Source of the DNA: Actinomycetes bacterium
Lineage (GTDB): Bacteria > Actinomycetota > Acidimicrobiia > Acidimicrobiales > Palsa-688
Assembly (NCBI GenBank): GCA_021809105.1
Contig: JAKBAM010000017.1
Location: 1-52,968 of the forward strand
Length of the DNA stretch: 52,968 nt
Reading direction: 5' to 3'
The translations under genes were made by a program, and so were the position numbers. Below the pieces are notes generated by a model. The model ran no database searches. It worked only from the letters and a program-made list of their open reading frames with translations, and was not told the origin of the DNA. Shown here piece after piece: positions 6,807 through 45,657 of this stretch; the first letter of the stretch is position 1; every line of letters starts with the position of its first letter.

Positions 6807-8276
6807 TCAGCGGCAGCCCCCCAGGTGGCGGCAGAGCGAACCGAGCAGTGCACCAGCGCCACGAGAGGAGCCGGCCGTGCCGTAAACCGCGAAGTCCGGC
6901 CGCACCAGCACGACCGAGGCGCCGAGCTCATCGAACCAGCTCGGGTAGGGCGAAGAGGCAGCCGAGCAGTCGACGGTCAGGCCGCGCAGCCCGGCGAACC
7001 AGCCGGCAACCTCGGGTGAGAGGCCCGCGGCGGGGTCGGCGTCGCGACCGTAGAGGACCCATCCCCGGCCGGCCAAGGAGTCAAAGCGCCCAGTGCGGCC
7101 GCCGGCGCTGATCTGGCCCTGCACCGACAGGGAGCCCGCCGCTCGGTCGCCGGCGAGCAACAGCCCCGGACCGAGCGGAGGGAGTGCAGGCGGGCCGACA
7201 GGACCTGACAGCTCGGCGGAGGCGATCATGGCGCGGTCCCTGACTGCTGCCTCCTCAGGATCGTCGATGCAGATGATCCGGCCCAGCTCGACAGAGAAAT
7301 CGATCTCTATGCGGGTCTGGGCAGCTCTCTCGCTCTCGTAGGTGGCGAGGAGGGCGGCGGGGGCCACGCCGCCCAGGACATGGTCGAGCTTCCAGGCCAG
7401 GTTGGATGCGTCCCGTAGGCCCGCGCAGAGCCCTTGCCCGGCAAAAGGGGGCATCTGGTGGGCGGCGTCGCCCGCCAAGAGGATGCGTCCCTTTGCCCAC
7501 TGCCGGGCCATCCTCGCTTCGAAGCGGTAGAGGGCGTGGCGCTCCAGCGTGGCGTTGGTGGGAGTGAGTCCCCACGACGCCAGGAGCCGCCACGACGTCG
7601 CTTCTGCGGCCAGCTCTCCGGCGTCCTCGCCGGGCAGGCGCATGAACTCGAACCGTCGCCGCCCCGGGCCGCCTGAGACGGCCGTCGTCGGGCGCGACGG
7701 GTCGCACACCTGGAGGTTGCAGGGATACCAACGACGCCCGGTGTGCTCGACGACGTCGACTATGAGCCAGTCGAAGGAGTAGCCGGCGTCGTCGCACTCG
7801 ATCCCGAGTAGCGCCCGCACGGTGCTGCGCGCCCCGTCGCAGCCCACCACCCAACCGTCGCCGAGCTCGGCGAGCGTCGTCACGTCCTGGCCTCGGCGTA
7901 CCTCCACCGACGGCAGGTCATCGAGGCGCCGGGCCAAGGCCGCCTCCAGGTCCGGCTGGGAGAACATCAGCGACTCCGGCCACCCGGAGCGCCCGAGCGT
8001 GCCTTCCGGTTGCAGGCGGAGCAGGACCTGCCCGGCCGCGTTGCGCCACTCGTAGGCGTCCATGGCCTCTGTCGAGGGCGCCAGCTCCTCCATCACCCCG
8101 GCCGCGTCGAGAATGCGCGCCGCCTGGTGGTCGAGGTGCACGGCCCGGGGCTGGCCCGGGACCGAGGCCCGCTTCTCCAGCACGAGGACTCGCCGACCCA
8201 TTGCCCCGAGCAGCGCGGCCAGGGTCATGCCGACGGGCCCGGCGCCGACAATGGTGACCTCCGGCTCGGGGTTCAC
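6807..8276 (-). CDS. FAD-dependent aromatic hydroxylase (MhpA/PheA-type monooxygenase)
   Basis: This 489-aa flavoprotein hydroxylates phenolic rings using NAD(P)H and O2. The N-terminal dinucleotide fold is VTIVGAGPVGMTLAALLGAMG followed by EKR. A second FAD motif is WVVGCDGARSTVRALLGI (DG motif), and the third is GRILLAGDAAHQMPPFAGQG (GD motif). The C-terminal thioredoxin-like tail (about 390-489) is typical of the 3-(3-hydroxyphenyl)propionate hydroxylase group. The GTG start at 8276 overlaps the stop of the upstream prenyltransferase (GTGA), so the two are co-translated. The divergent neighbours encode a methyltransferase and a type III polyketide synthase. By analogy with srsABC of Streptomyces the enzyme may hydroxylate an alkylresorcinol toward a quinone; that substrate is inference. 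Confidence 0.85.
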   Translation of the reverse strand: MNPEPEVTIVGAGPVGMTLAALLGAMGRRVLVLEKRASVPGQPRAVHLDHQAARILDAAGVMEELAPSTEAMDAYEWRNAAGQVLLRLQPEGTLGRSGWPESLMFSQPDLEAALARRLDDLPSVEVRRGQDVTTLAELGDGWVVGCDGARSTVRALLGIECDDAGYSFDWLIVDVVEHTGRRWYPCNLQVCDPSRPTTAVSGGPGRRRFEFMRLPGEDAGELAAEATSWRLLASWGLTPTNATLERHALYRFEARMARQWAKGRILLAGDAAHQMPPFAGQGLCAGLRDASNLAWKLDHVLGGVAPAALLATYESERAAQTRIEIDFSVELGRIICIDDPEEAAVRDRAMIASAELSGPVGPPALPPLGPGLLLAGDRAAGSLSVQGQISAGGRTGRFDSLAGRGWVLYGRDADPAAGLSPEVAGWFAGLRGLTVDCSAASSPYPSWFDELGASVVLVRPDFAVYGTAGSSRGAGALLGSLCRHLGGCR

Positions 8277-9106
8277 AGCTGGCGCCCGCGGCTCACCAAC
8301 ATGGCCACATCGACGAGTGCCACCACCAGCGACGCCCGGAACAGCAGATCTTCGCGGCCTCGCCGGTAGGCCACCAGGCCGGCGCCCACGACCGCCGCGG
8401 CAAGCGGCAGCCCGATCGATGTCCACCCCGGGTGCCCCGGACCGAAGGCCACGACCGCGGAAGCAGTCAGCAAAAGGGCCGTGGCGGCCGCCACGCTTCG
8501 GGTCCGACCCAGGCGGTGCGGCAACCCCCTTACTCCCGTCGCGGCGTCGGCCGCCAGGTCCGGCACCACGTTCGCCATGTGGGCGCCGACTCCGAGCAGA
8601 GCTGCAGCCACCACCAACCACCACGGGGGCGCCGGGTGACCCCGGCCACCCAGCGAGACGAACGACACCAGCAGGGCGAAGCTTGCGGCATAAGGAGCCC
8701 ACGACCAGACGGTGCTCTTCAGCCGAGCGTTGTACGCCCAAGCCAGGAGCACGGCCACGACGTGCGATGTGCCGGCCCTCCACCCCGACAGGAAGGACAG
8801 GGGGACGCACGCCAGCAGGGCGGTAGCGGCCGACACTCCTACCGTGGCGCGTCGGAGGTCGCTGCCCACCAGGGGCTTGTCGCCCCGTTGAGCAGTCCGG
8901 TCCCGTTCGGCGTCGAGCCAGTCGTTGTGCCACCCCACCGACAGCTGGCCGGCGAGGACCGCGGCGGCGACCGCCAGCATCCCTACCGCCGGGCGCCCTG
9001 ACGCCCCTGCGAGCGCTGTGGCACCAGCTGTCACCGCCACCGTCGGCTCCGGATGGCAAGCTCGCAACAGCGCCGCCCGGCCTCCTCCAGCATGTTCCGG
9101 CCCCAT
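8273..9106 (-). CDS. UbiA-family aromatic prenyltransferase
   Basis: This integral membrane prenyltransferase (about 277 aa, 8-9 TM helices) transfers an isoprenoid diphosphate to an aromatic or quinol acceptor. The first Mg-diphosphate motif is NDWLDAERDRTAQRGDKPL (NDxxDxxxD) and the second is NVVPDLAADAATG (DxxxD). Length and helix spacing fit UbiA/MenA relatives. The start is uncertain: ATG 9106 is used here. ATG 9118, or a TTG at 9067 just before the conserved-looking RACHPEPTVAVT segment and preceded by GGAGGAGG, are alternatives. It overlaps the hydroxylase downstream by GTGA. Only about 30-70 bases separate it from the divergent methyltransferase, so the shared promoter must be very compact or lie inside coding DNA. 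Confidence 0.83.
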   Translation of the reverse strand: MGPEHAGGGRAALLRACHPEPTVAVTAGATALAGASGRPAVGMLAVAAAVLAGQLSVGWHNDWLDAERDRTAQRGDKPLVGSDLRRATVGVSAATALLACVPLSFLSGWRAGTSHVVAVLLAWAYNARLKSTVWSWAPYAASFALLVSFVSLGGRGHPAPPWWLVVAAALLGVGAHMANVVPDLAADAATGVRGLPHRLGRTRSVAAATALLLTASAVVAFGPGHPGWTSIGLPLAAAVVGAGLVAYRRGREDLLFRASLVVALVDVAMLVSRGRQL

Positions 9107-9134
9107 GCCGGTCACCATAGGAGGACGACTGTGG

Positions 9135-9863
9135 TTGGGTGGCTGTGTGCCGCTGCCCACCCCGCGCGCCCGTAACGATCCCCGCCAGTACGACGACCTC
9201 GTCGACGCCTGGTGGGATCCCAGAGGCGCATTCGCCATGCTCCACTGGCTGGCCGAAGCGCGCGCGGCGCTCGTGCCTCCCGCGTCGCGACCCGCTGCTG
9301 TGCTCGTGGACCTCGGGTGCGGCGGCGGCCTCCTCGCGCCCCACCTGGAAGGCAAGGGGTACCACCACATCGGCGTCGACCTCACCCTCTCGGCGCTCGG
9401 GACCGCCCGAGAGCATGAGCTGGCAGTGCTGCGAGGGGACGTCACGGCTGTGCCCCTGCGGGATGCCAGCGCGGATGTGGTCTGCGCGGGTGAAATCCTC
9501 GAGCACGTCACCGACGCCGCCGCAGTCGCGGCCGAGGCCTGCCGACTGCTGCGTCCGGGTGGCACCCTCGTCGTGGATACCATCGCCGCCACCCGGCTCG
9601 CCACACTCGTGGCGGTGGAGCTGGGGGAGCGTGTCCCTGGCGCCGCTCCGGCGGGGATCCACGACCCGGGCCTCTTCGTGGACCGCCGGGCTCTGGTCGA
9701 TACCTGCGCCGCCCACGGGGTCGACCTCCGGCTCCGGGGCCTGCGCCCGAAGTGGCGGGAACTGGTCGGCTGGATGGCCGGGCGGCGGCCCACCGTCACC
9801 ATGGTGCCGGTGTGGACCACGGCAGTGCTGTTCCAAGGGTGGGGCACCAAGGCGGCCCCGTGA
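9135..9863 (+). CDS. UbiG-like SAM-dependent O-methyltransferase
   Basis: This is a class I methyltransferase of about 242 aa resembling 3-demethylubiquinone O-methyltransferase (UbiG). The N-terminal YDDLVDAWWDPRGAFAMLHW block is the UbiG-type lead. The SAM-binding loop is LVDLGCGGGLLAPHLEGKG, with VDLT as the acidic end of strand 2 and a later GEILEHVTD segment. The TTG at 9135 is preferred because AGGAGGA sits nine bases upstream; GTG 9147 is the alternative. The stop overlaps the type III PKS start (GTGA). The pair parallels srsA (PKS) and srsB (methyltransferase) of Streptomyces griseus phenolic-lipid biosynthesis, so it probably methylates a resorcinol or hydroquinone hydroxyl. Confidence 0.85.
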   Translation: MGGCVPLPTPRARNDPRQYDDLVDAWWDPRGAFAMLHWLAEARAALVPPASRPAAVLVDLGCGGGLLAPHLEGKGYHHIGVDLTLSALGTAREHELAVLRGDVTAVPLRDASADVVCAGEILEHVTDAAAVAAEACRLLRPGGTLVVDTIAATRLATLVAVELGERVPGAAPAGIHDPGLFVDRRALVDTCAAHGVDLRLRGLRPKWRELVGWMAGRRPTVTMVPVWTTAVLFQGWGTKAAP

Positions 9864-11029
9864 GCGCCACGACAGCTCTCGCCTGGAGCCCGGACCGCGA
9901 CGGCGAGAAGATCTCTCCAGGTCCGGCGGTGTTGACCGGTAGCGGGCAGGCCTTCCCCCCCGGCAAGAGCCAGCAGGAGTACTGGGACGGCTTCTACGGG
10001 CCCCACACCGGGCACAGCCGTTGGGCGCGGGCCGTCTTTCTCGACGCCGGCTGCAGCCGGCGCCACACCGCCGTCGACCCCACCGTCGAAGACATCTCAG
10101 CCTGGTCCACAGGCCAGCGGATGGCTCGCTACATGGAAGAGGCCCTTCCGCTCGCCACCCGTTCCGCAACCCGAGCTCTCGAGTCCTCCGGGCTGGCGGT
10201 CGGGGACCTCGGGCTGTTGGCAGTGGTGTCCTGCACCGGCTACGCGACCCCCGGCCTGGACATACGGCTGGCGGAAGCGTTGGGCGCCGACCCCTCCCTC
10301 CAGCGGCTGCTCATCGGCCACATGGGCTGTTATGCCGCATTGCCCGGGCTGGGAGCGGTCAGTGACGCCGTGGTCGCCCGCCGCCACCCGGGGCTGCTCG
10401 TGTGCGTCGAGGTCGCCAGCCTCCACGTCCAGCCGCCGCCTGGCGGCGGTGGGCCGCGGGGCGGCCGGGACTTGGAGCAGGTCGTGGCTCACGCCCTGTT
10501 CTCCGACGGAGCTGCGGCGGTGGTGGTCGAGCCGGGCTCCTCGCCTGCGCCGGCCCGGCTCGGACCAGCGCAGCCCGGGCTGGCATGCGCCGGACTGGCA
10601 GTCGTCGACGTCGCGGCTCGCACCGATGTCGGCACAGCCGACCACATGACGTGGGACATCACCGATCTGGGATTCCGCATGGGCCTGTCGCGGCGGGTGC
10701 CTGCGGTCCTGGCGCGCCACGTCGGGCCGCTTGTCGACGGGCTCCTCCAGGCCAACGGGCTCCGGCGCTGTGACATCGACGGCTGGGCGGTCCACCCGGG
10801 AGGGCCCCGTATCCTCGACGTCGTCGCCGACCGCCTGGGCCTACCCCCGAATGCCCTGGCGCTGTCACGCCAAGTGCTGGACCAGCACGGCAACTGCTCG
10901 TCGCCGACCGTGCTGCTGGTCCTCGAGCTCCTGCGGTCCTCGGCGCCGATCGCGGCGGGGCGCCATGTGGTGGCGTTGGCGTTTGGCCCGGGCCTCACCC
11001 TGTACGGGGTCCTGCTCCGAGCCGTGTGA
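9860..11029 (+). CDS. Type III polyketide synthase (chalcone/alkylresorcinol synthase family)
   Basis: This homodimeric 389-aa synthase condenses a starter acyl-CoA with malonyl-type extenders to make alkylpyrones or alkylresorcinols. The catalytic triad is complete: Cys157 in HMGCYAALPG, His312 in WAVHPGGPRILD and Asn345 in DQHGNCSSPTVL. The family's CTGYATPG segment is at 125-132. The GTG start overlaps the methyltransferase stop. The co-translated methyltransferase plus the divergent hydroxylase and UbiA protein define a phenolic-lipid or prenylated-quinone pathway. The starter and extender units cannot be read from the sequence. The next gene follows 95 bases downstream on the same strand, so read-through into the MauD-like operon is possible. 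Confidence 0.93.
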   Translation: MSATTALAWSPDRDGEKISPGPAVLTGSGQAFPPGKSQQEYWDGFYGPHTGHSRWARAVFLDAGCSRRHTAVDPTVEDISAWSTGQRMARYMEEALPLATRSATRALESSGLAVGDLGLLAVVSCTGYATPGLDIRLAEALGADPSLQRLLIGHMGCYAALPGLGAVSDAVVARRHPGLLVCVEVASLHVQPPPGGGGPRGGRDLEQVVAHALFSDGAAAVVVEPGSSPAPARLGPAQPGLACAGLAVVDVAARTDVGTADHMTWDITDLGFRMGLSRRVPAVLARHVGPLVDGLLQANGLRRCDIDGWAVHPGGPRILDVVADRLGLPPNALALSRQVLDQHGNCSSPTVLLVLELLRSSAPIAAGRHVVALAFGPGLTLYGVLLRAV

Positions 11030-11124
11030 CCGCCCATCGCAGGCGAGCTCCGCAGTACGCGCCGGGCGGCGCCCAGCCCGTTATGGTGGGTCGGCATCCG
11101 TCCGCCGAGCTGGAGGTGCGACAG

Positions 11125-11931
11125 GTGGTGGCAATCGATGTGGTGGTGCTGGTGGCCGTGGCCCTCCTGGGCTTCTTGGTCGTCGGGCTACTCCGCTCCA
11201 ATGCCGAGCTGACCCGAGCCCTGCACAGCCTGGGCGTCGATCTCGACCCCGACTCACCCACCGGCGCCGGCGCCGTGCCTGTGGCGATCCAGGCCCGCCC
11301 TACGCCTGCCCGCCCAGACGCGACGGCAGTCCCCGACCTAGCCGGAGTGAGCCCCTCCGGGGACGCAGTGGGGATCGCCGTGACCGGTGTTCGACACGAC
11401 ACGCTGGTGGCCTTCCTCACCTCGGGATGCTCCACCTGCCGAGCCATCTGGGGGGTGTTGGAGCAAGGGATACCCGAGGTGCCCGGCGGCGCCCGCCTCG
11501 TCGTGGTCACCCGCGGCAGCGAAGCGGAATCTCCCGCAGCCGTCGCCGGCCTGGCGGGACCCCACGTTCCCGTCGTGATGTCCACTGACGTGTGGACCGG
11601 ATACGACGTGCCCTACGCCCCGTACTTCGTCTACGTGTCCGGGCCCGCCGGGCGGGTGGTCGGCGAAGGGACCGCGGCCACGTGGGAAGCGATGTGCGCA
11701 ATGGTCGCCAACGCCGTCGCCGATGGCACCACCAACCCACTCGCCCCGCCCGACCCTCCGGCCCGGCCGAACATCGACCAACGGTGGTCCAAGGCGGGCG
11801 CCGACGCCGAGCGCGAACAGCGCATCGATCGGGAGCTGGCAGCGGCGGGGATCCTTCCCGGCGACCCCCGCCTCCGGCCCACCGCCATCACCCACCCGGG
11901 TCCGGTAGGGACCGGCGGTGCAGACCGGTGA
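11125..11931 (+). CDS. MauD/TlpA-like membrane-anchored thioredoxin-fold protein
   Basis: This thiol-disulfide oxidoreductase (268 aa) has a single N-terminal membrane anchor (residues 1-23, VAIDVVVLVAVALLGFLVVG) and an extracytoplasmic thioredoxin-like domain. The active-site motif is CSTC (102-105) within VAFLTSGCSTCRAIW, with a plausible cis-Pro loop in VPYAPYFVYV. The GTG at 11125 is chosen because GGAGGTG lies six bases upstream and the protein then begins at the anchor. An upstream in-frame GTG at 11026 overlaps the PKS stop but would add a non-hydrophobic leader. MauD-like proteins assist disulfide formation in methylamine dehydrogenase small subunits. A MauE-like gene and a light-chain-like gene downstream support that role. 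The C-terminal 60 residues are Pro-rich and of unknown use. Confidence 0.8.
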   Translation: MVAIDVVVLVAVALLGFLVVGLLRSNAELTRALHSLGVDLDPDSPTGAGAVPVAIQARPTPARPDATAVPDLAGVSPSGDAVGIAVTGVRHDTLVAFLTSGCSTCRAIWGVLEQGIPEVPGGARLVVVTRGSEAESPAAVAGLAGPHVPVVMSTDVWTGYDVPYAPYFVYVSGPAGRVVGEGTAATWEAMCAMVANAVADGTTNPLAPPDPPARPNIDQRWSKAGADAEREQRIDRELAAAGILPGDPRLRPTAITHPGPVGTGGADR

Positions 11932-12002
11932 GCGCGGCTTTCACGACCGTCGGCGTGAGCATCGCCGTGGTCGCCGGGTTGCGCTCCACCTGGTCACCCT
12001 GA
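11928..12002 (+). CDS. Possible 24-residue hydrophobic peptide
   Basis: A short reading frame starts at a GTG that overlaps the stop of the thioredoxin gene (GTGA) and stops nine bases before the ATG of the next membrane protein. The peptide, VSAAFTTVGVSIAVVAGLRS followed by TWSP, has a hydrophobic core of about 15 residues. It fills almost the whole gap in an operon that otherwise has none, which is the reason to list it. It could be a real small membrane peptide, or simply a coupling device that keeps ribosomes moving. I do not recognise a family. Confidence 0.3.
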   Translation: MSAAFTTVGVSIAVVAGLRSTWSP

Positions 12003-12011
12003 GGCGAGTCG

Positions 12012-12614
12012 ATGCTGACCAGCATCAGCCCGCTCGGTGAGCGGGCCCGGCACAACCGGTGGTCGATCACGGTGTCCTCCTATGTCGCGTCCTCGGTGGC
12101 CGCGGCAGCCGGCATCGGCTTGCTGCTGGGCCTGATCGGCTCGGTCGCCGGCGCCTCGCTGGCCGAGCGCGCCGTGATGCTGGCCGTCCTTGCGGTGGCT
12201 GCTGCGGCCGCCGACGGCCTCGGGGCCCAAGCGCCAGGGCCGCGCCGCCAGGTCGACGAGGACTGGCTCAACCGCTATCGGGGCTGGGCGTACGGAGCCG
12301 GCTTCGGCGCGCAGCTCGGAGCCGGCGTCGCCACCATCGTCACCACCGCCACTATCTGGCTGTACCTCGCCGCCGCCCTGGTGTCCGGCGCATGGTGGCT
12401 GGGCGCGGCGGTCGGTGCGGCCTTCGGGCTCGCCCGGTCGCTGCCCCTGATGGGGGCGGGGCGCGTCCGGTCGTTTTCGCAGCTACAGCAACGACACGCC
12501 ACCCTGGTGCGCGTGGCGCCTCTCGCCCGGCGCGTGACGACCTCCTTCGCAGCGGCCGCGGCCGTCACGCTGGTGGCCGTCGCGATCGCCGCCAGCACGG
12601 CCGGATCCTCATGA
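12012..12614 (+). CDS. Five-TM membrane protein of unknown function in the Mau-like operon
   Basis: This 200-aa integral membrane protein has about five predicted helices, near residues 18-45, 51-70, 94-116, 118-143 and 176-197. It contains the segment LNRYRGWAYGAGFGAQLGAG, whose Gly-rich helix is reminiscent of DsbD/CcdA-type electron carriers. I see no cysteine pair in the membrane region, so a redox role is not shown. ATG 12012 has GAGGCGAG upstream. The stop overlaps the ATG of the next gene (ATGA). Position between a MauD-like thioredoxin and a MauE-like protein suggests help in export, folding or electron transfer for the Cys-rich Tat protein at the operon's end. I do not recognise the family. 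Confidence 0.7.
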   Translation: MLTSISPLGERARHNRWSITVSSYVASSVAAAAGIGLLLGLIGSVAGASLAERAVMLAVLAVAAAAADGLGAQAPGPRRQVDEDWLNRYRGWAYGAGFGAQLGAGVATIVTTATIWLYLAAALVSGAWWLGAAVGAAFGLARSLPLMGAGRVRSFSQLQQRHATLVRVAPLARRVTTSFAAAAAVTLVAVAIAASTAGSS

Positions 12615-13075
12615 GGATCACGTCGCACGGCCTCTCCGTCAGCCCTCCGCCCGGATGGGACGCCGCGATATACCTCCGGCCCGCCGGACCGGGCGAGGTC
12701 ACCCGACCTGTCCTCCACGCCGCCACCGTGCCGCTGCCAACGGGACGAGGCGACTACGGCAGCGGCCTGGTCGAGACCCTATCCGCTACCGACGTCTTCG
12801 TCGCCCTCCTCGACTTCGGGCCCGAGGCCGCCGGCACTGCCCTCTTCGCACCCGACGCCATGCCCGGGTTGACCCCTGACATGTACCGACCCAAAGCCCT
12901 GCAGCGGATCATTGCAGGGCAAGCCGGTGTGCAACGGTTCTTCACGGCCAGCGGCAGAGGGTTCTGCCTGTACTCGGTAGTCGGCTCGTACGCAGCGCGC
13001 CAGGCCCTTTGCGCGCGAGCCAACCAGGTGCTCGGCTCGCTCCAGGTCGCGGCGGGCTCGGGGGGCGGCGGATGA
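12611..13075 (+). CDS. Small soluble protein of unknown function in the Mau-like operon
   Basis: A 154-aa protein without a signal peptide or membrane helices starts at an ATG overlapping the previous stop and ends in an ATGA junction with the next gene. It has an ordered, domain-like sequence. Blocks are SVSPPPGWDAAIYLR, RPVLHAATVPLPTGRGDYGS, VFVALLDFGPEAAGTALF and QAGVQRFFTASGRGFCLYSV, which read like a single compact alpha/beta domain. The sequence has the look of a conserved protein rather than a spurious frame, because it keeps typical coding composition and tight overlaps on both sides. No function can be assigned. A cytoplasmic accessory role for the exported partner is the best guess. 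Confidence 0.72.
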   Translation: MRITSHGLSVSPPPGWDAAIYLRPAGPGEVTRPVLHAATVPLPTGRGDYGSGLVETLSATDVFVALLDFGPEAAGTALFAPDAMPGLTPDMYRPKALQRIIAGQAGVQRFFTASGRGFCLYSVVGSYAARQALCARANQVLGSLQVAAGSGGGG

Positions 13076-13620
13076 GCGCCGGGGCGCCGGCGGTGGCGGG
13101 CCTCTTCGTCGCCGGGTCACTGCTGCTCGCCGGCGCCGGCATCTCCAAGGTGCGCCGGCCCTCCGACAGCGCCACTGCGCTGCGCGCTGCCGGCGTCCCA
13201 GCCACCGCCGGGCGGGTACGGGTAGGGGCGCTACTCGAGGTGGCCGTTGCCCTGGCCGCCCTGGTGGCGCCAGGTCCAATCCCGGCGCTGCTGGTGGCGG
13301 CGTCCTACGCCGGGTTCGCGGTGTTCGTGGCGATCGCCCTCCGCCGGCATCTTCCGCTGGCGTCATGCGGGTGCTTCGGGCGCCCCGACACCCCCCCGTC
13401 CTGGTCCCACGTCGTAGTAGACGTCGTAGCCGCGGGGGCGGCTCTCGGATGGGCGTTCAGCGCCTCGGCGTCGCTGCCCGCGACCCTCTTGCGTCAGTCG
13501 TGGCGGGCTGTCCCGCTGGGGTTGGGCGGGCTGGTCGTGTGCGGCCTGGCAGCCGCCATGCTCACCAGCCCGCTGGCTCTGGCTCGCCACCGGCAGCCAC
13601 GATCGGAGGACCGCCCGTGA
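13072..13620 (+). CDS. MauE/DoxX-like membrane redox protein
   Basis: This 182-aa, four-helix membrane protein is of the MauE type and is thought to act with MauD in disulfide formation of a secreted partner. Helices lie near 8-26, 50-68, 72-92 and 112-135, with another hydrophobic stretch near 148-170. The diagnostic loop LPLASCGCFGRPD carries Cys99 and Cys101, the CGCFG signature of the family. ATG 13072 overlaps the upstream stop. Its own stop overlaps the GTG of the Tat-exported MADH-light-chain-like gene, so the presumed chaperone and client are translationally coupled. No mauB heavy-chain gene is present nearby. Confidence 0.85.
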   Translation: MSAGAPAVAGLFVAGSLLLAGAGISKVRRPSDSATALRAAGVPATAGRVRVGALLEVAVALAALVAPGPIPALLVAASYAGFAVFVAIALRRHLPLASCGCFGRPDTPPSWSHVVVDVVAAGAALGWAFSASASLPATLLRQSWRAVPLGLGGLVVCGLAAAMLTSPLALARHRQPRSEDRP

Positions 13621-14993
13621 CTGTCGTCGAGCGCATGGGGGACTGGCTGGTCGGACGGACGTCGCGGCGCAGCTTCCTGGCCCGCAGCACCATGATCGCC
13701 ACCGCGGCGTCGATCGCCCCGGCAGACTTCTTGCTGCGCCCGGGCACCGCGTACGCCTTCGTGTGCCAATGCGCCAGCTCCAGCTGCTCGTGCAACCAGG
13801 CTTGCTGTGACGGCTACACCCAGTTCTGTTGCACCATCGACGGAGGCGTCAATGCCTGCCCGCCCGGGAGCTTCGCGGGCGGCTGGTGGAAAGCGGACGG
13901 ATCCGTCTACTGCGCTGGCGCTCGCTACTACATCGACTGCATGGGCGAGTGCCACGGATGCTCCTGCCCGGGCGGGTTCCCGTTCTGCGGCTGCGACGGC
14001 CTGACGTGCGAGTGCGCCAACGGCGACTGCAACAACCGCCACGTCGGTTGCACCGAGTTTCGCTACGGCCAGTGCAACACGCAGATTGCCTGCTCTGGCC
14101 GCATCCTGTGCCGCGTGGTCAGCTGCACCCCGCCATGGCTGCTGGACCCGAGCTGTTCTACGGTGTCGCAGGTCGACGAGTCGACGGCCAACCACTACGC
14201 GCCGTGCCAGGACGGCCCCACTTCCTTCGGGCCGCCTCCGGCCCCCGCACCCCCAGCGGTGGTGGGGATGGCCCCCACTGCGACGGGGAACGGCTACTGG
14301 ATCGTCGATGCCGCCGGCGTCGTGTCGACCTTCGGCGACGCCGCCAGCTTGGGCGACCTATCCGGGAAGGTCCTCAACAAGCCGATAGCAGGGATGGCCG
14401 CGACGCCGACTGGCCAGGGGTATTGGCTAGTGGCGGCCGACGGCGGCATCTTCGAGTTCGGGGACGCCACCTTCCAGGGCTCGACGGGAAACGTGCAGCT
14501 CAACCAGCCGATAGTCGGTCTGGCCGCGGACCCCGCCACCGGCGGCTACTGGCTGGTGGCCTCGGACGGTGGGATCTTCGACTTCGCCACGCCCTTCGAC
14601 GGATCGACCGGCAACGTCCGGCTCAACAGGCCGATCGTCGGCATGGCCGCCCGCCGCACCGGCGACGGCTACTGGCTGGTGGCTTCGGACGGTGGGATCT
14701 TCGAGTTCGGCGACGCGCCGTTCCTCGGCTCTACCGGCAACGTCGCGCTCAACCAGCCCGTGGTCGGGATGGCGGCCACCCCGACCGGCCAGGGCTACTG
14801 GCTGGTGGCTTCGGACGGTGGGATCTTCGAGTTCGGCGACGCGCCGTTCCTCGGCTCTACCGGCAACGTCGCGCTCAACCAGCCCGTGGTCGGGATGGCG
14901 GCCACCCCGACCGGCCAGGGCTACTGGCTGGTGGCCGCCGACGGCGGCATCTTCAACTTCGGGGACGCCTCGTTCCACGGGTCGCCGGCGTGA
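13617..14993 (+). CDS. Tat-exported Cys-rich protein: methylamine dehydrogenase light-chain-like domain fused to six 42-residue repeats
   Basis: This 458-aa protein has three parts. Residues 1-48 are a twin-arginine signal (TSRRSFLARS then a hydrophobic stretch). Residues 49-200 carry more than 20 cysteines and resemble the small subunit of methylamine dehydrogenase (MauA), with the shared block NACPPGSFAGGWW (78-91) and IACSGRILCRVVSC (157-170). After a Pro-rich linker, residues 217-458 are six repeats of the GYWLVASDGGIFEFGDA type, probably a beta-propeller-like surface. In a hand alignment the first cofactor tryptophan of MauA matches W90/W91, but the second is Ala158. An ordinary tryptophan tryptophylquinone therefore cannot form. 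MauD- and MauE-like genes precede it in overlap. Substrate and function are unknown. Confidence 0.78.
   Translation: MTVVERMGDWLVGRTSRRSFLARSTMIATAASIAPADFLLRPGTAYAFVCQCASSSCSCNQACCDGYTQFCCTIDGGVNACPPGSFAGGWWKADGSVYCAGARYYIDCMGECHGCSCPGGFPFCGCDGLTCECANGDCNNRHVGCTEFRYGQCNTQIACSGRILCRVVSCTPPWLLDPSCSTVSQVDESTANHYAPCQDGPTSFGPPPAPAPPAVVGMAPTATGNGYWIVDAAGVVSTFGDAASLGDLSGKVLNKPIAGMAATPTGQGYWLVAADGGIFEFGDATFQGSTGNVQLNQPIVGLAADPATGGYWLVASDGGIFDFATPFDGSTGNVRLNRPIVGMAARRTGDGYWLVASDGGIFEFGDAPFLGSTGNVALNQPVVGMAATPTGQGYWLVASDGGIFEFGDAPFLGSTGNVALNQPVVGMAATPTGQGYWLVAADGGIFNFGDASFHGSPA
14265..14990 (+). repeat. Six in-frame 126-bp repeats encoding GYWLVA-type units
   Basis: Six tandem units, five of them near 42 codons and the last shorter, make up the C-terminal half of the MauA-like fusion. 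Units four and five (14667-14792 and 14793-14918) are identical over all 126 bases. Neighbouring units differ at many positions. This shows a recent duplication or gene conversion inside the array. The same unit type is encoded in the NlpC/P60 gene at 44398-45657. Confidence 0.93.
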
Positions 14994-18231: not shown

Positions 18232-18534
18232 GTGCAGCTGAGCCCCCATGAGTGCGACAAGCTCTTGTTGTCGGTGGCGGCGATGGTGGCGAGGGATCGC
18301 CGGGAGCGAGGGTTGCGGCTCAATCACCCTGAGTCGGTGGCGATCATTTCGAGCTTTGTCATGGAGGGTGCCCGGGACGGTCGCAGCGTGGCGTCGCTGA
18401 TGGCCGATGCCCGCGAGGTCCTCGGCCGCGGTGATGTCATGGACGGGGTGGCGGAGATGTTGAGCGAGGTGCAGGTGGAGGCCACGTTCCCTGACGGGAC
18501 GAAGCTGGTCACCGTGCACGGGCCGATCGCGTGA
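18232..18534 (+). CDS. ureA: Urease gamma subunit
   Basis: This 100-aa small structural subunit of urease (urea to ammonia and carbamate) has the standard length. It contains the family blocks [40 protein letters not shown] and [18 protein letters not shown] start at 18232 gives the expected N-terminus. The stop overlaps the GTG of ureB. It heads a tight ureABCFGD operon. No ureE or nickel transporter gene is visible in the window. Confidence 0.97.
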
Positions 18535-18855
18535 CGCCGGGCGAGGTGATTGTCGGGGAGGGTGCGGTTGAGATCAACGCCGGACGGCCGGTCACGACGG
18601 TGACGGTGGTCAACATCGGGGATCGCCCGGTGCAGGTCGGGTCGCATTTCCATTTCGCCGAGGCCAACCCGGCTTTGGAGCTCGACCGGACTGCGGCCAG
18701 GGGGCAGCGTCTTGCAGTGGCGGCGGGTACCAGTGTCCGCTTCGAGCCGGGCATCGAGCGGCAGGTCGACTTGGTGCCTTTCGGCGGTGATCGTTATGTC
18801 GCCGGTTTCCGGGGGGAGGTGGCCGGCCTGCTGGAATCGCGTCCCGGCGCCGTCG

Positions 18856-18872
<17 letters not shown>
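18531..18872 (+). CDS. ureB: Urease beta subunit
   Basis: This 113-aa structural subunit forms the collar of the urease trimer with UreA and UreC. It starts with the GTG overlapping the ureA stop. Diagnostic segments are [39 protein letters not shown] and [20 protein letters not shown]. The C-terminus runs over the start of ureC, a longer overlap than the other junctions. The end is Gly/Val-rich and slightly longer than in many relatives. Confidence 0.97.
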
Positions 18873-20585
<1,713 letters not shown>

Positions 20586-20586
<1 letters not shown>

Positions 20587-44397: not shown

Positions 44398-45657
44398 CTA
44401 GGGGTGGGTTCCAAGGGCCATGAACCCGGTGCCGCCGATCCAGTCGGTGCTCACCACCTGCCCGGGATAAGGCGCGTTGACCATGTGGCCGCCCCCGAGG
44501 TACATCGCCACGTGCTCGATCGAGGTCGGATCGGCGGGGTTGGTCGCCCAGTAGACCAGGTCGCCGGCGACGAGGTCGTCCATGGCCACCTTCGCTCCGG
44601 CGATGTACTGGTCGGCGGCGACGCGCGGGATGGCAACCCCGGCTGCCCGCCACGCCTCCATCACCAGACCCGAGCAGTCGAACCCGCCGGCGCCCGTACC
44701 GCCCCACAGGTAGGGCGCGCCGAGCTGCGCCATGGCCCACTCGACCGCTGCGTCGCCCGGGCTCTGGACGGTGTGCATGATGGCCAGTACAGGCGGCGCC
44801 TGCCCGACGGCTGAGCCGAAGGGATGGATGTCGCCGTCGTGGGTGATCTCCCAGTAGCCCTGACCGTCTTGGGTGGGAACGATCGCCGATACGGTCTGAC
44901 CCAGGTTGGCGCCGCCGAGCGAGCCGTAGTATTGGGCGTCACCGAAGGGGAACACCCCGCCGTCCGCGCCGACCATCCAGTAACCCCCCTGGTCTGCGGT
45001 CGCAGTCATCGAGACGATCGGGCTGTTGAGCCTCACGTTGCCGGTCGACCCGAAGAAGTGCGCGTTCCCGAACGAAAAGACACCGCCGTCGCCGGCGAAA
45101 AGCCAGTAGCCCTGCCCGTCCGGGGTCGAGGACATCCCCACGATTGGCTGGTTGAGGTGGATGTTGCCGGTCGACCCGTAGAACTGGGCGTCCCCGAAAT
45201 CGAACACGCCGCCGTCGCCGGCAAAGAGCCAGTAGCCCTTGCCGTCGGGAGTGGCCGCCATGCCGATGATCGGCTGGTTGAGGTGGATGTTGCCGGTCGA
45301 CCCGTAGAACCGGGCGTCACCGAACTCGAAGATGCCGCCGTCGGCGGCTACGAGCCAGTAGCCCTTGGCGTCGGGCGTCAGCGTCACGCCTATCACCGGG
45401 GCGTTGAGGTGGATCCCGGCTAGTGAGCCGTAGTCGGTGGCACCCCCGAGGGGCCACACTGCTCCGGTCGGGCTGACTTCGTAGTAGGGAGTCGGGTTCT
45501 CGTAGGGAGAAGGAGCGGTCGGGGTGGGTGCCGAGGCGGCCGCGGCGTGGAGAGAGGCGGCAGCGGCGCCTGGGCGCGCCACCGCCATGCCGGCGAGGGT
45601 GGAGGTCGACGCCAAGGCTGCGATCGCCGCGATCGATCGTCGAAAGGAGGTCCGCAC
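44398..45657 (-). CDS. Secreted NlpC/P60 peptidase with GYWLVA-type repeats
   Basis: This 419-aa secreted peptidoglycan endopeptidase has a signal peptide at about 1-34 (GTG start 45657, basic FRR then Ala-rich core). About six 42-residue repeats follow (70-290), such as KGYWLFAGDGGVFDFGDAQFYG. The C-terminal NlpC/P60 domain (about 300-419) has nucleophile Cys in GGFDCSGLVMEAWR, His in IEHVAMYLGGGHMV and a third polar residue nearby. The repeats are the same family as in the Tat-exported MauA-like protein at 13617-14993, though the catalytic modules are unrelated. This suggests a shared wall- or glycan-binding element. Confidence 0.92.
   Translation of the reverse strand: MRTSFRRSIAAIAALASTSTLAGMAVARPGAAAASLHAAAASAPTPTAPSPYENPTPYYEVSPTGAVWPLGGATDYGSLAGIHLNAPVIGVTLTPDAKGYWLVAADGGIFEFGDARFYGSTGNIHLNQPIIGMAATPDGKGYWLFAGDGGVFDFGDAQFYGSTGNIHLNQPIVGMSSTPDGQGYWLFAGDGGVFSFGNAHFFGSTGNVRLNSPIVSMTATADQGGYWMVGADGGVFPFGDAQYYGSLGGANLGQTVSAIVPTQDGQGYWEITHDGDIHPFGSAVGQAPPVLAIMHTVQSPGDAAVEWAMAQLGAPYLWGGTGAGGFDCSGLVMEAWRAAGVAIPRVAADQYIAGAKVAMDDLVAGDLVYWATNPADPTSIEHVAMYLGGGHMVNAPYPGQVVSTDWIGGTGFMALGTHP

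Follow-up and report, generated by a model that had tools for sequence, protein, structure and literature searches.

What do the maturation proteins of methylamine dehydrogenase (MADH) act on where the enzyme itself is not found? The question is raised by a mau-like operon on contig JAKBAM010000017.1 of an actinomycete of the order Acidimicrobiales (lineage Palsa-688, GenBank assembly GCA_021809105.1), of which positions 1 to 52,968, called the window here, were analysed. The operon spans 11128-14993 on the plus strand and consists of five genes, coding for a MauD-like thioredoxin, a MauF-like membrane protein, a 154-aa protein, MauE and a cysteine-rich protein which we call the client. With a probability of roughly 0.8 we propose that the MauD-, MauE- and MauF-like proteins likely form a thiol-disulfide machine, with a predicted selenocysteine (Sec) in MauF, and that this machine likely matures the client, a predicted exported and surface-held protein with 26 cysteines. 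A first-pass annotation of the same DNA had already suggested that Mau maturation proteins are reused here for another exported cysteine-rich protein. This proposal stands, as the genes form a conserved unit and no mauB or mauG was found; what had escaped it are MauF, the predicted Sec codon and the fusion of the client to a propeller and to other modules.

An operon of five genes

The genes of the operon and the codon in question are the following, with the evidence in brackets.

11128-11931, plus strand: MauD-like membrane-anchored thioredoxin with the motif CSTC (translation, gene call, one N-terminal hydrophobic segment, family hidden Markov model (HMM))
11928-12614, plus strand: MauF with predicted Sec, one frame across a TGA, possibly a DsbD/CcdA-like membrane protein (frame and homology on either side of the TGA)
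12000-12002, plus strand: TGA codon, predicted to encode Sec, at the invariant Cys of MauF (survey of loci; tRNA-Sec, SelA and SelB in the genome)
12611-13075, plus strand: conserved 154-aa protein, fold unassigned (homologue search, co-occurrence, hydropathy)
13072-13620, plus strand: MauE with a CGC motif (match to PF07291, conserved residues)
13617-14993, plus strand: client with a signal of the twin-arginine translocation (Tat) type, a 26-Cys domain and a six-repeat beta-propeller (profile, Cys count, AlphaFold2 (AF2) model)

Gene calls were made with our own simple script, and the genes lie where the first-pass annotation had placed them. The MauD-like gene is taken to start at the GTG at 11128, while the script picked an upstream ATG at 11083. 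Six genes had been counted before, including a possible small peptide (11928-12002) and a protein with five transmembrane segments (12012-12614). However, the latter continues the reading frame of the 24-codon peptide across the TGA and the homology to MauF runs through both, which leaves five genes. The supposed peptide is the N-terminus of the MauF-like protein, joined to the rest via the predicted Sec codon; the larger piece remains a membrane protein but is no gene of its own, and its likeness to MauF had not been recognized. Once the frame is counted as one gene, the tight packing described earlier applies to all four junctions, each with a 4-base overlap (11928-11931, 12611-12614, 13072-13075 and 13617-13620).

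MauD, MauE and MauF each match their counterpart from Paracoccus denitrificans. Family HMMs were run against 18 proteins from the Paracoccus and Thermomicrobium roseum clusters. The MauD-like family scores 35.9 bits with Paracoccus MauD (hhalign 96.1%), and both cysteines of the CxxC motif are present in 49 of its 51 members. Paracoccus MauE is found with 40.0 bits by the MauE family, and MauE of the window matches PF07291 (E 6e-13, 49.6 bits, cut-off 27); C94, C96 and H108 are kept in all 49 members and the intervening Gly in 47. The MauF-like family scores 66.0 bits with Paracoccus MauF (hhalign 97.3%) and 43.5 with a 197-aa protein of T. roseum, the other proteins of the set reaching at most 4.4. 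The 154-aa protein had been described as unknown and soluble, in agreement with a hydropathy profile showing no hydrophobic segment; of its 405 homologues, the 120 matches listed carry no Pfam domain.

A TGA codon in place of the invariant cysteine of MauF

In bacterial selenoproteins a redox cysteine is replaced by a UGA-coded Sec, and a hairpin follows downstream. A UGA at such a site and a hairpin after it are both seen in the window. Where Paracoccus MauF has GGLLSTWSP-C-GYSSIS, the window reads AGLRSTWSP-TGA-GESMLTSIS, with homology to MauF on both sides of the TGA and a Cys aligned there in relatives. The UGA lies in frame, within conserved coding sequence, at a cysteine position. The motif WSP-C/U-G is invariant across 36 aligned MauF proteins and contains their single invariant Cys/Sec.

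In a scan of all loci, which accepted only Cys or stop codons at this site and in which some contig records repeat whole-genome contigs, TGA occurred 92 times, TGC 13 and TGT 11 times (24 Cys), and TAA and TAG not once. The 80 non-overlapping loci from whole-genome searches comprise 53 with TGA, six with Cys (among them L034, L043 and L062), none with TAA or TAG, two without a codon call (L080, L203) and 19 without a MauF match. The window genome harbours both forms, since contig C37 (L034) carries the set once more, there with a TGC-type MauF downstream of the client. The same TGA is present in the sister Acidiferrimicrobium sp. IK, whose Cys domain is 93% identical and whose predicted peptide across the codon is STWSP-U-GESMLTSISPLGER. 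A Sec-containing MauF would span lineages: the client occurs in 30 of 396 genomes of the phylum, 22 of them outside the class of the window, and MauF is of the TGA type in 19 of the 20 client loci compared from such genomes. All these sequences are related, so that the counts are not independent.

Two stem-loops follow the codon, the first of them right after the UGA.

12011-12026, plus strand: hairpin 1, similar to a selenocysteine insertion sequence (SECIS), GAUGCU-NNNN-AGCAUC, 8 nt past the UGA (counts in TGA- versus Cys-type sequences, synonymous control, RNAalifold)
12030-12044, plus strand: second hairpin, CCGCUC-GGU-GAGCGG (counts in TGA- versus Cys-type sequences, synonymous control)

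The six-pair stem of hairpin 1 is complete in 75 of 84 distinct TGA-type sequences and in one of 21 Cys-type sequences; when synonymous codons were redrawn 200 times, on average 9 and at most 18 of the 84 kept it. For complete pairing of the second stem the figures are 63 of 84 versus 0 of 21 (synonymous control: mean 4.8, maximum 10), and one of its pairs has switched from C-G to U-A in seven sequences. At the seventh codon after the site the serine codon AGC stands in 84 of 84 TGA-type and 3 of 21 Cys-type sequences, AGC making up 25.6% of Ser codons. Five of the six pairs of hairpin 1 are recovered by RNAalifold in the TGA set (82 sequences), which finds no structure in the Cys set (21). 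Folding of the window alone gives modest z-scores (-1.7 to -2.6), and no match to an Rfam SECIS family was obtained. Judged by these codon comparisons, the hairpin is kept beyond what the peptide requires.

All three decoding components which we sought were found in the window genome: a tRNA-Sec (67.1 bits, cut-off 47), SelA (399 bits, cut-off 268) and, adjoining it on contig C101, SelB (242.4 bits, cut-off 242.25). A tRNA-Sec above cut-off is present in 216 of 296 genomes of the class. At a cut of E<=5e-11, which we set at a gap in the list, 30 of the 34 genomes whose MauF is of the TGA type have it, compared to 8 of 25 others (Fisher p 1.7e-5), these others being genomes in which the compared client locus encodes no MauF or one of the Cys type, and including loci cut by contig ends. 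The TGA of MauF is therefore predicted to encode Sec, which would make MauF a new selenoprotein family, with genes that a standard reading cuts at the UGA, just as in the first-pass annotation.

Co-occurrence of the five genes

The set does co-occur in other genomes. Within the class, 63 of 296 genomes contain the client domain and 65 the 154-aa protein, 62 of them having both. We regard a client locus as well-flanked if at least 4 kb are available on each side, which holds for 45 of 80 loci examined. Proteins of the MauD, MauE and 154-aa families are encoded in 45 of these 45 loci, and a MauF-like protein in 34. A contig-level search yielded 253 confirmed stretches, 80 of which were compared. 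Outside the class the order MauE-MauD-MauF-154-client is found in 16 of 20 compared loci, one of which has two additional called genes within the set. The recurrence of the set exceeds chance.

The client

The client (458 aa, P0005) consists of an N-terminal signal region and two further parts.

13755-14225, plus strand: 26-Cys domain, fold weakly similar to the MADH light chain (invariant Trp-Trp at 13884-13889)
14253-14990, plus strand: six 42-aa repeats, modelled as a beta-propeller (repeat analysis, AF2)

It had been described before as a Tat-exported cysteine-rich protein. The cysteines are there, whereas the Tat signal lies near the threshold (TIGR01409, 16.4 bits, slightly below the cut-off of 16.7) and the propeller had been overlooked. 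In the AF2 model the repeats (residues 213-458) fold with a predicted local distance difference test score (pLDDT) of mostly 95-98. For the Cys domain the pLDDT was about 30 with 108 sequences and 89.3 in a second model based on 79 diverse domains.

We found 853 relatives of the client, 120 of which were listed. Across them the Cys domain is constant while the C-terminal part varies: besides propeller repeats there are domains of the tectonin type (PF19193, with precomputed matches in 7 of the 120) and other modules. Scanning of 64 full-length clients revealed LGFP in 16, CWB2 in 4, SLH in one, two ricin-lectin models in one each, FG-GAP-like in one and DUF4214 in one. Forms of 191 and 175 aa have no second domain. 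An NlpC/P60 peptidase encoded in the window (44398-45657, minus strand) bears, at 45037-45433, the same 42-aa repeats as the client, which suggests a role of the repeat in targeting proteins to the cell wall; because of this protein we interpret the client propeller as a module for wall or glycan.

At L044, L058-L060, L084, L088-L090, L092 and L208-L213 the client locus is adjoined by genes for surface proteins which, judged by eye, are SLH-like and have the motif AGIT-GC. Single-linkage clustering groups them with FG-GAP-like proteins, again assigned by eye, and this cluster is represented close to the core at 25 of 81 loci. We see this as a hint of a surface function and do not count these proteins as part of the system.

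The term "MauA-like", used in the first-pass annotation, amounts to a weak resemblance at fold level, and there is no sequence match: PF02975 matches 0 of 44 client domains and not the protein of the window. The six structure matches of the client domain are light chains of enzymes with tryptophan tryptophylquinone (TTQ); Foldseek alone gave no light chain. In our own alignment a Trp pair, present in 42 of 42 domains with letters there (of 44), and an Asp (44 of 44) align with Trp57 and Asp76 of MADH, and the column of Trp108 contains Gln in 42 and Asn in two of the 44 domains; the roles of these three MADH residues are presumed here. The Cys-rich domain of the client probably descends from a MADH light chain. 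It would not form a canonical TTQ, since Gln or Asn takes the place of the second Trp. The conserved residues (Trp pair, Arg-Tyr-x-x-Asp, FRYGQC) suggest a predicted binding or redox site, whereby the invariance of FRYGQC is inflated in the domain set A4, which was picked by patterns including it; the set A3 is free of this bias.

No match to PF06433 (heavy chain) or PF03150 (MauG) was obtained in the window genome, which is 92.3% complete, and with PF06433 no heavy-chain propeller turned up elsewhere in it; the first-pass annotation had noted the absence of both genes. The Paracoccus plasmid, used as a control, is recovered by the heavy-chain search with 701.7 bits, and the MauG search matches 2 of 14 named genomes. 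PF02975 did not match the window genome either, a negative with no positive control behind it; this search matched 0 of its 14 control genomes. Among the 396 genomes of the phylum nothing exceeded the PF02975 cut-off, and one weak match lay below it.

Alternative readings

Could the TGA be an ordinary stop, with a short leader peptide followed by a separate membrane protein gene that starts by re-initiation at ATG 12012? The window does have this ATG three codons past the TGA, and 79% of the called genes in these loci stop with TGA. Because of this share the absence of TAA and TAG alongside 92 TGA is not decisive alone; decisive are the Cys alternatives, found in 24 loci, and the hairpin which accompanies the TGA. 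Moreover, the homology to MauF continues across the codon, TGA-type MauF is associated with tRNA-Sec and the frame begins in the 4-base overlap with the MauD gene. We consider an ordinary stop very improbable. Equally far-fetched appears the idea that the client is a cysteine-rich precursor of a ribosomally synthesized and post-translationally modified peptide (RiPP), with MauD and MauE as tailoring enzymes. It is modelled on Streptomyces clusters which, in the passages compared, have MauE, in one case MauD, together with precursors containing 8 or more Cys (PMC7794033), but the client, at 458 aa, with its Tat-type signal and a domain that is conserved and modelled with confidence, is no small precursor.

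A somewhat better case, although still an unlikely one, can be made for the client as an active quinoprotein dehydrogenase, i.e. a single-chain relative of MADH that has its propeller in the same polypeptide and bears a cofactor at the conserved Trp. The matches to Trp57 and Asp76, the six TTQ light chains among the structure matches and the fused propeller of the window client all speak in its favour. However, the second TTQ tryptophan is missing in 44 of 44 domains, the genome has no MauG match, the C-terminus is often no propeller or, in the two short forms, lacking, and the 25 largest neighbour clusters, inspected by eye and not profile-scanned, do not look like cytochrome c or cupredoxin.

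Several observations weigh against the thiol-disulfide machine with Sec-MauF and a light-chain-like client which we prefer. No MauF lies beside the client at 11 of the 45 well-flanked loci, and a tRNA-Sec is present in four or more of the genomes concerned; therefore MauF is dispensable there or located elsewhere. SelB is just 0.15 bits above its cut-off, and four of the 34 genomes with TGA-type MauF, all in 180 to 500 contigs, lack a clear tRNA-Sec. No DsbD profile matches MauF of the window or of Paracoccus, and MauF has one redox residue compared to presumably two in DsbD. Sequence searches of Pfam, NCBIfam and the PDB gave no light-chain match to the client or its Cys domain, and none is among the 41 Foldseek matches with E<=10 (the best, E 4.9, is another protein). 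As hhalign aligned only 12 columns (1.9%) between 79 client domains and seven MADH light chains, homology to MauA in sequence is not claimed; against single proteins the client family gave 59% and 29% for T. roseum, and 46% for Paracoccus MauA over the signal region only. Finally, a wall-binding Pfam domain was not recognized in most of the 64 clients scanned.

Neighbouring genes

Just upstream of the operon (6807-11029) a FAD monooxygenase and a UbiA prenyltransferase are encoded on the minus strand, and a methyltransferase and a chalcone-synthase-type protein on the plus strand, likely a small secondary-metabolite cluster. These four genes were considered as parts of the system and dropped because strong relatives, among the loci compared, exist only in the sister locus L094. 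Genes for the gamma and alpha subunits of urease are located at 18232-20586.

Proposed mechanism

MauF could be a divergent DsbD/CcdA-like membrane protein with Sec as its single redox residue, which would pass electrons across the membrane to the CSTC motif of MauD. MauD might then reshuffle or correct the disulfides of the client after its export by Tat, and MauE, with its CGC motif, may act as an oxidising or partner membrane protein to complete the relay. The swappable C-terminal modules of the client (propeller, LGFP, CWB2, SLH, lectin) would bind wall or glycan. We know of no proof of a biochemical role of MauF; if our reading is correct, MauF gains one as a selenol-based membrane redox carrier, and the Mau machinery stands beside a family of predicted surface proteins, the 853 relatives being unannotated where seen. 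We rate as improbable the speculation that the relay builds a surface light-chain-like domain in which a redox cofactor of a new kind, derived from Trp and made without MauG or a second Trp, is held by the invariant Trp pair and Asp.

Comparison with known systems

Searches of Creative Commons-licensed papers in PubMed Central turned up none that deals with a selenocysteine-containing MauF or with this client. The table of the top 20 selenoprotein families in Peng et al. 2016 (PMC5029168), to which our comparison is restricted out of a full list of about 90 families, has no MauF or methylamine-related family, and "methylamine" is absent from the part of the text compared. The Streptomyces clusters mentioned above resemble the window in having MauE/MauD in actinobacteria without MADH, and their cysteine-rich precursors are read as RiPP candidates; they differ in that MauF and selenium do not appear in the compared passages (PMC7794033). 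The same passages cite van der Palen 1997 for MauE/MauD in the maturation of MADH, and also for the speculation that MauE acts on disulfides.

The likeness of MauF to DsbD/CcdA consists of weak profile matches, 12 of 36 members matching DsbD_2 (PF13386) at E<=5 (best 5.9e-6) and two matching PF02683, and of an SPC-type motif which we take to be common to both. The single redox residue sets MauF apart. A PDB profile search with MauF found no CcdA chain, its two matches (E 0.3) being both glyceraldehyde-3-phosphate dehydrogenase, and no NCBIfam family matches more than one of the 36 members (best E 0.06).

A further system to compare is the cluster on the plasmid of T. roseum (NC_011961, L175, 717-9349). 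It encodes MauD, MauE, here fused to a large N-terminal part, small cysteine-rich light-chain-like proteins and a MauF-like protein with TGA at the same codon (8744-8746); the 12 annotated features compared include no mauG. The light chain of this cluster belongs to PF02975 (36.2 bits, cut-off 25) and has, by eye, the second-site Trp; neither applies to the client of the window. Separate large proteins of the plasmid were taken as propellers by eye, without a PF06433 match.

The mau cluster of P. denitrificans comprises, as annotated, mauR, mauFBEDA, amicyanin, mauJ, mauG and napGH-type genes. In contrast to it, the operon lacks amicyanin, searches of the window genome gave neither mauB nor mauG, MauF has a UGA codon at the position of its Cys, the 154-aa protein is added, and the client does not belong to PF02975 and lacks Trp108. 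Common to both are MauF, MauE, MauD and an exported cysteine-rich protein with a twin-arginine signal.

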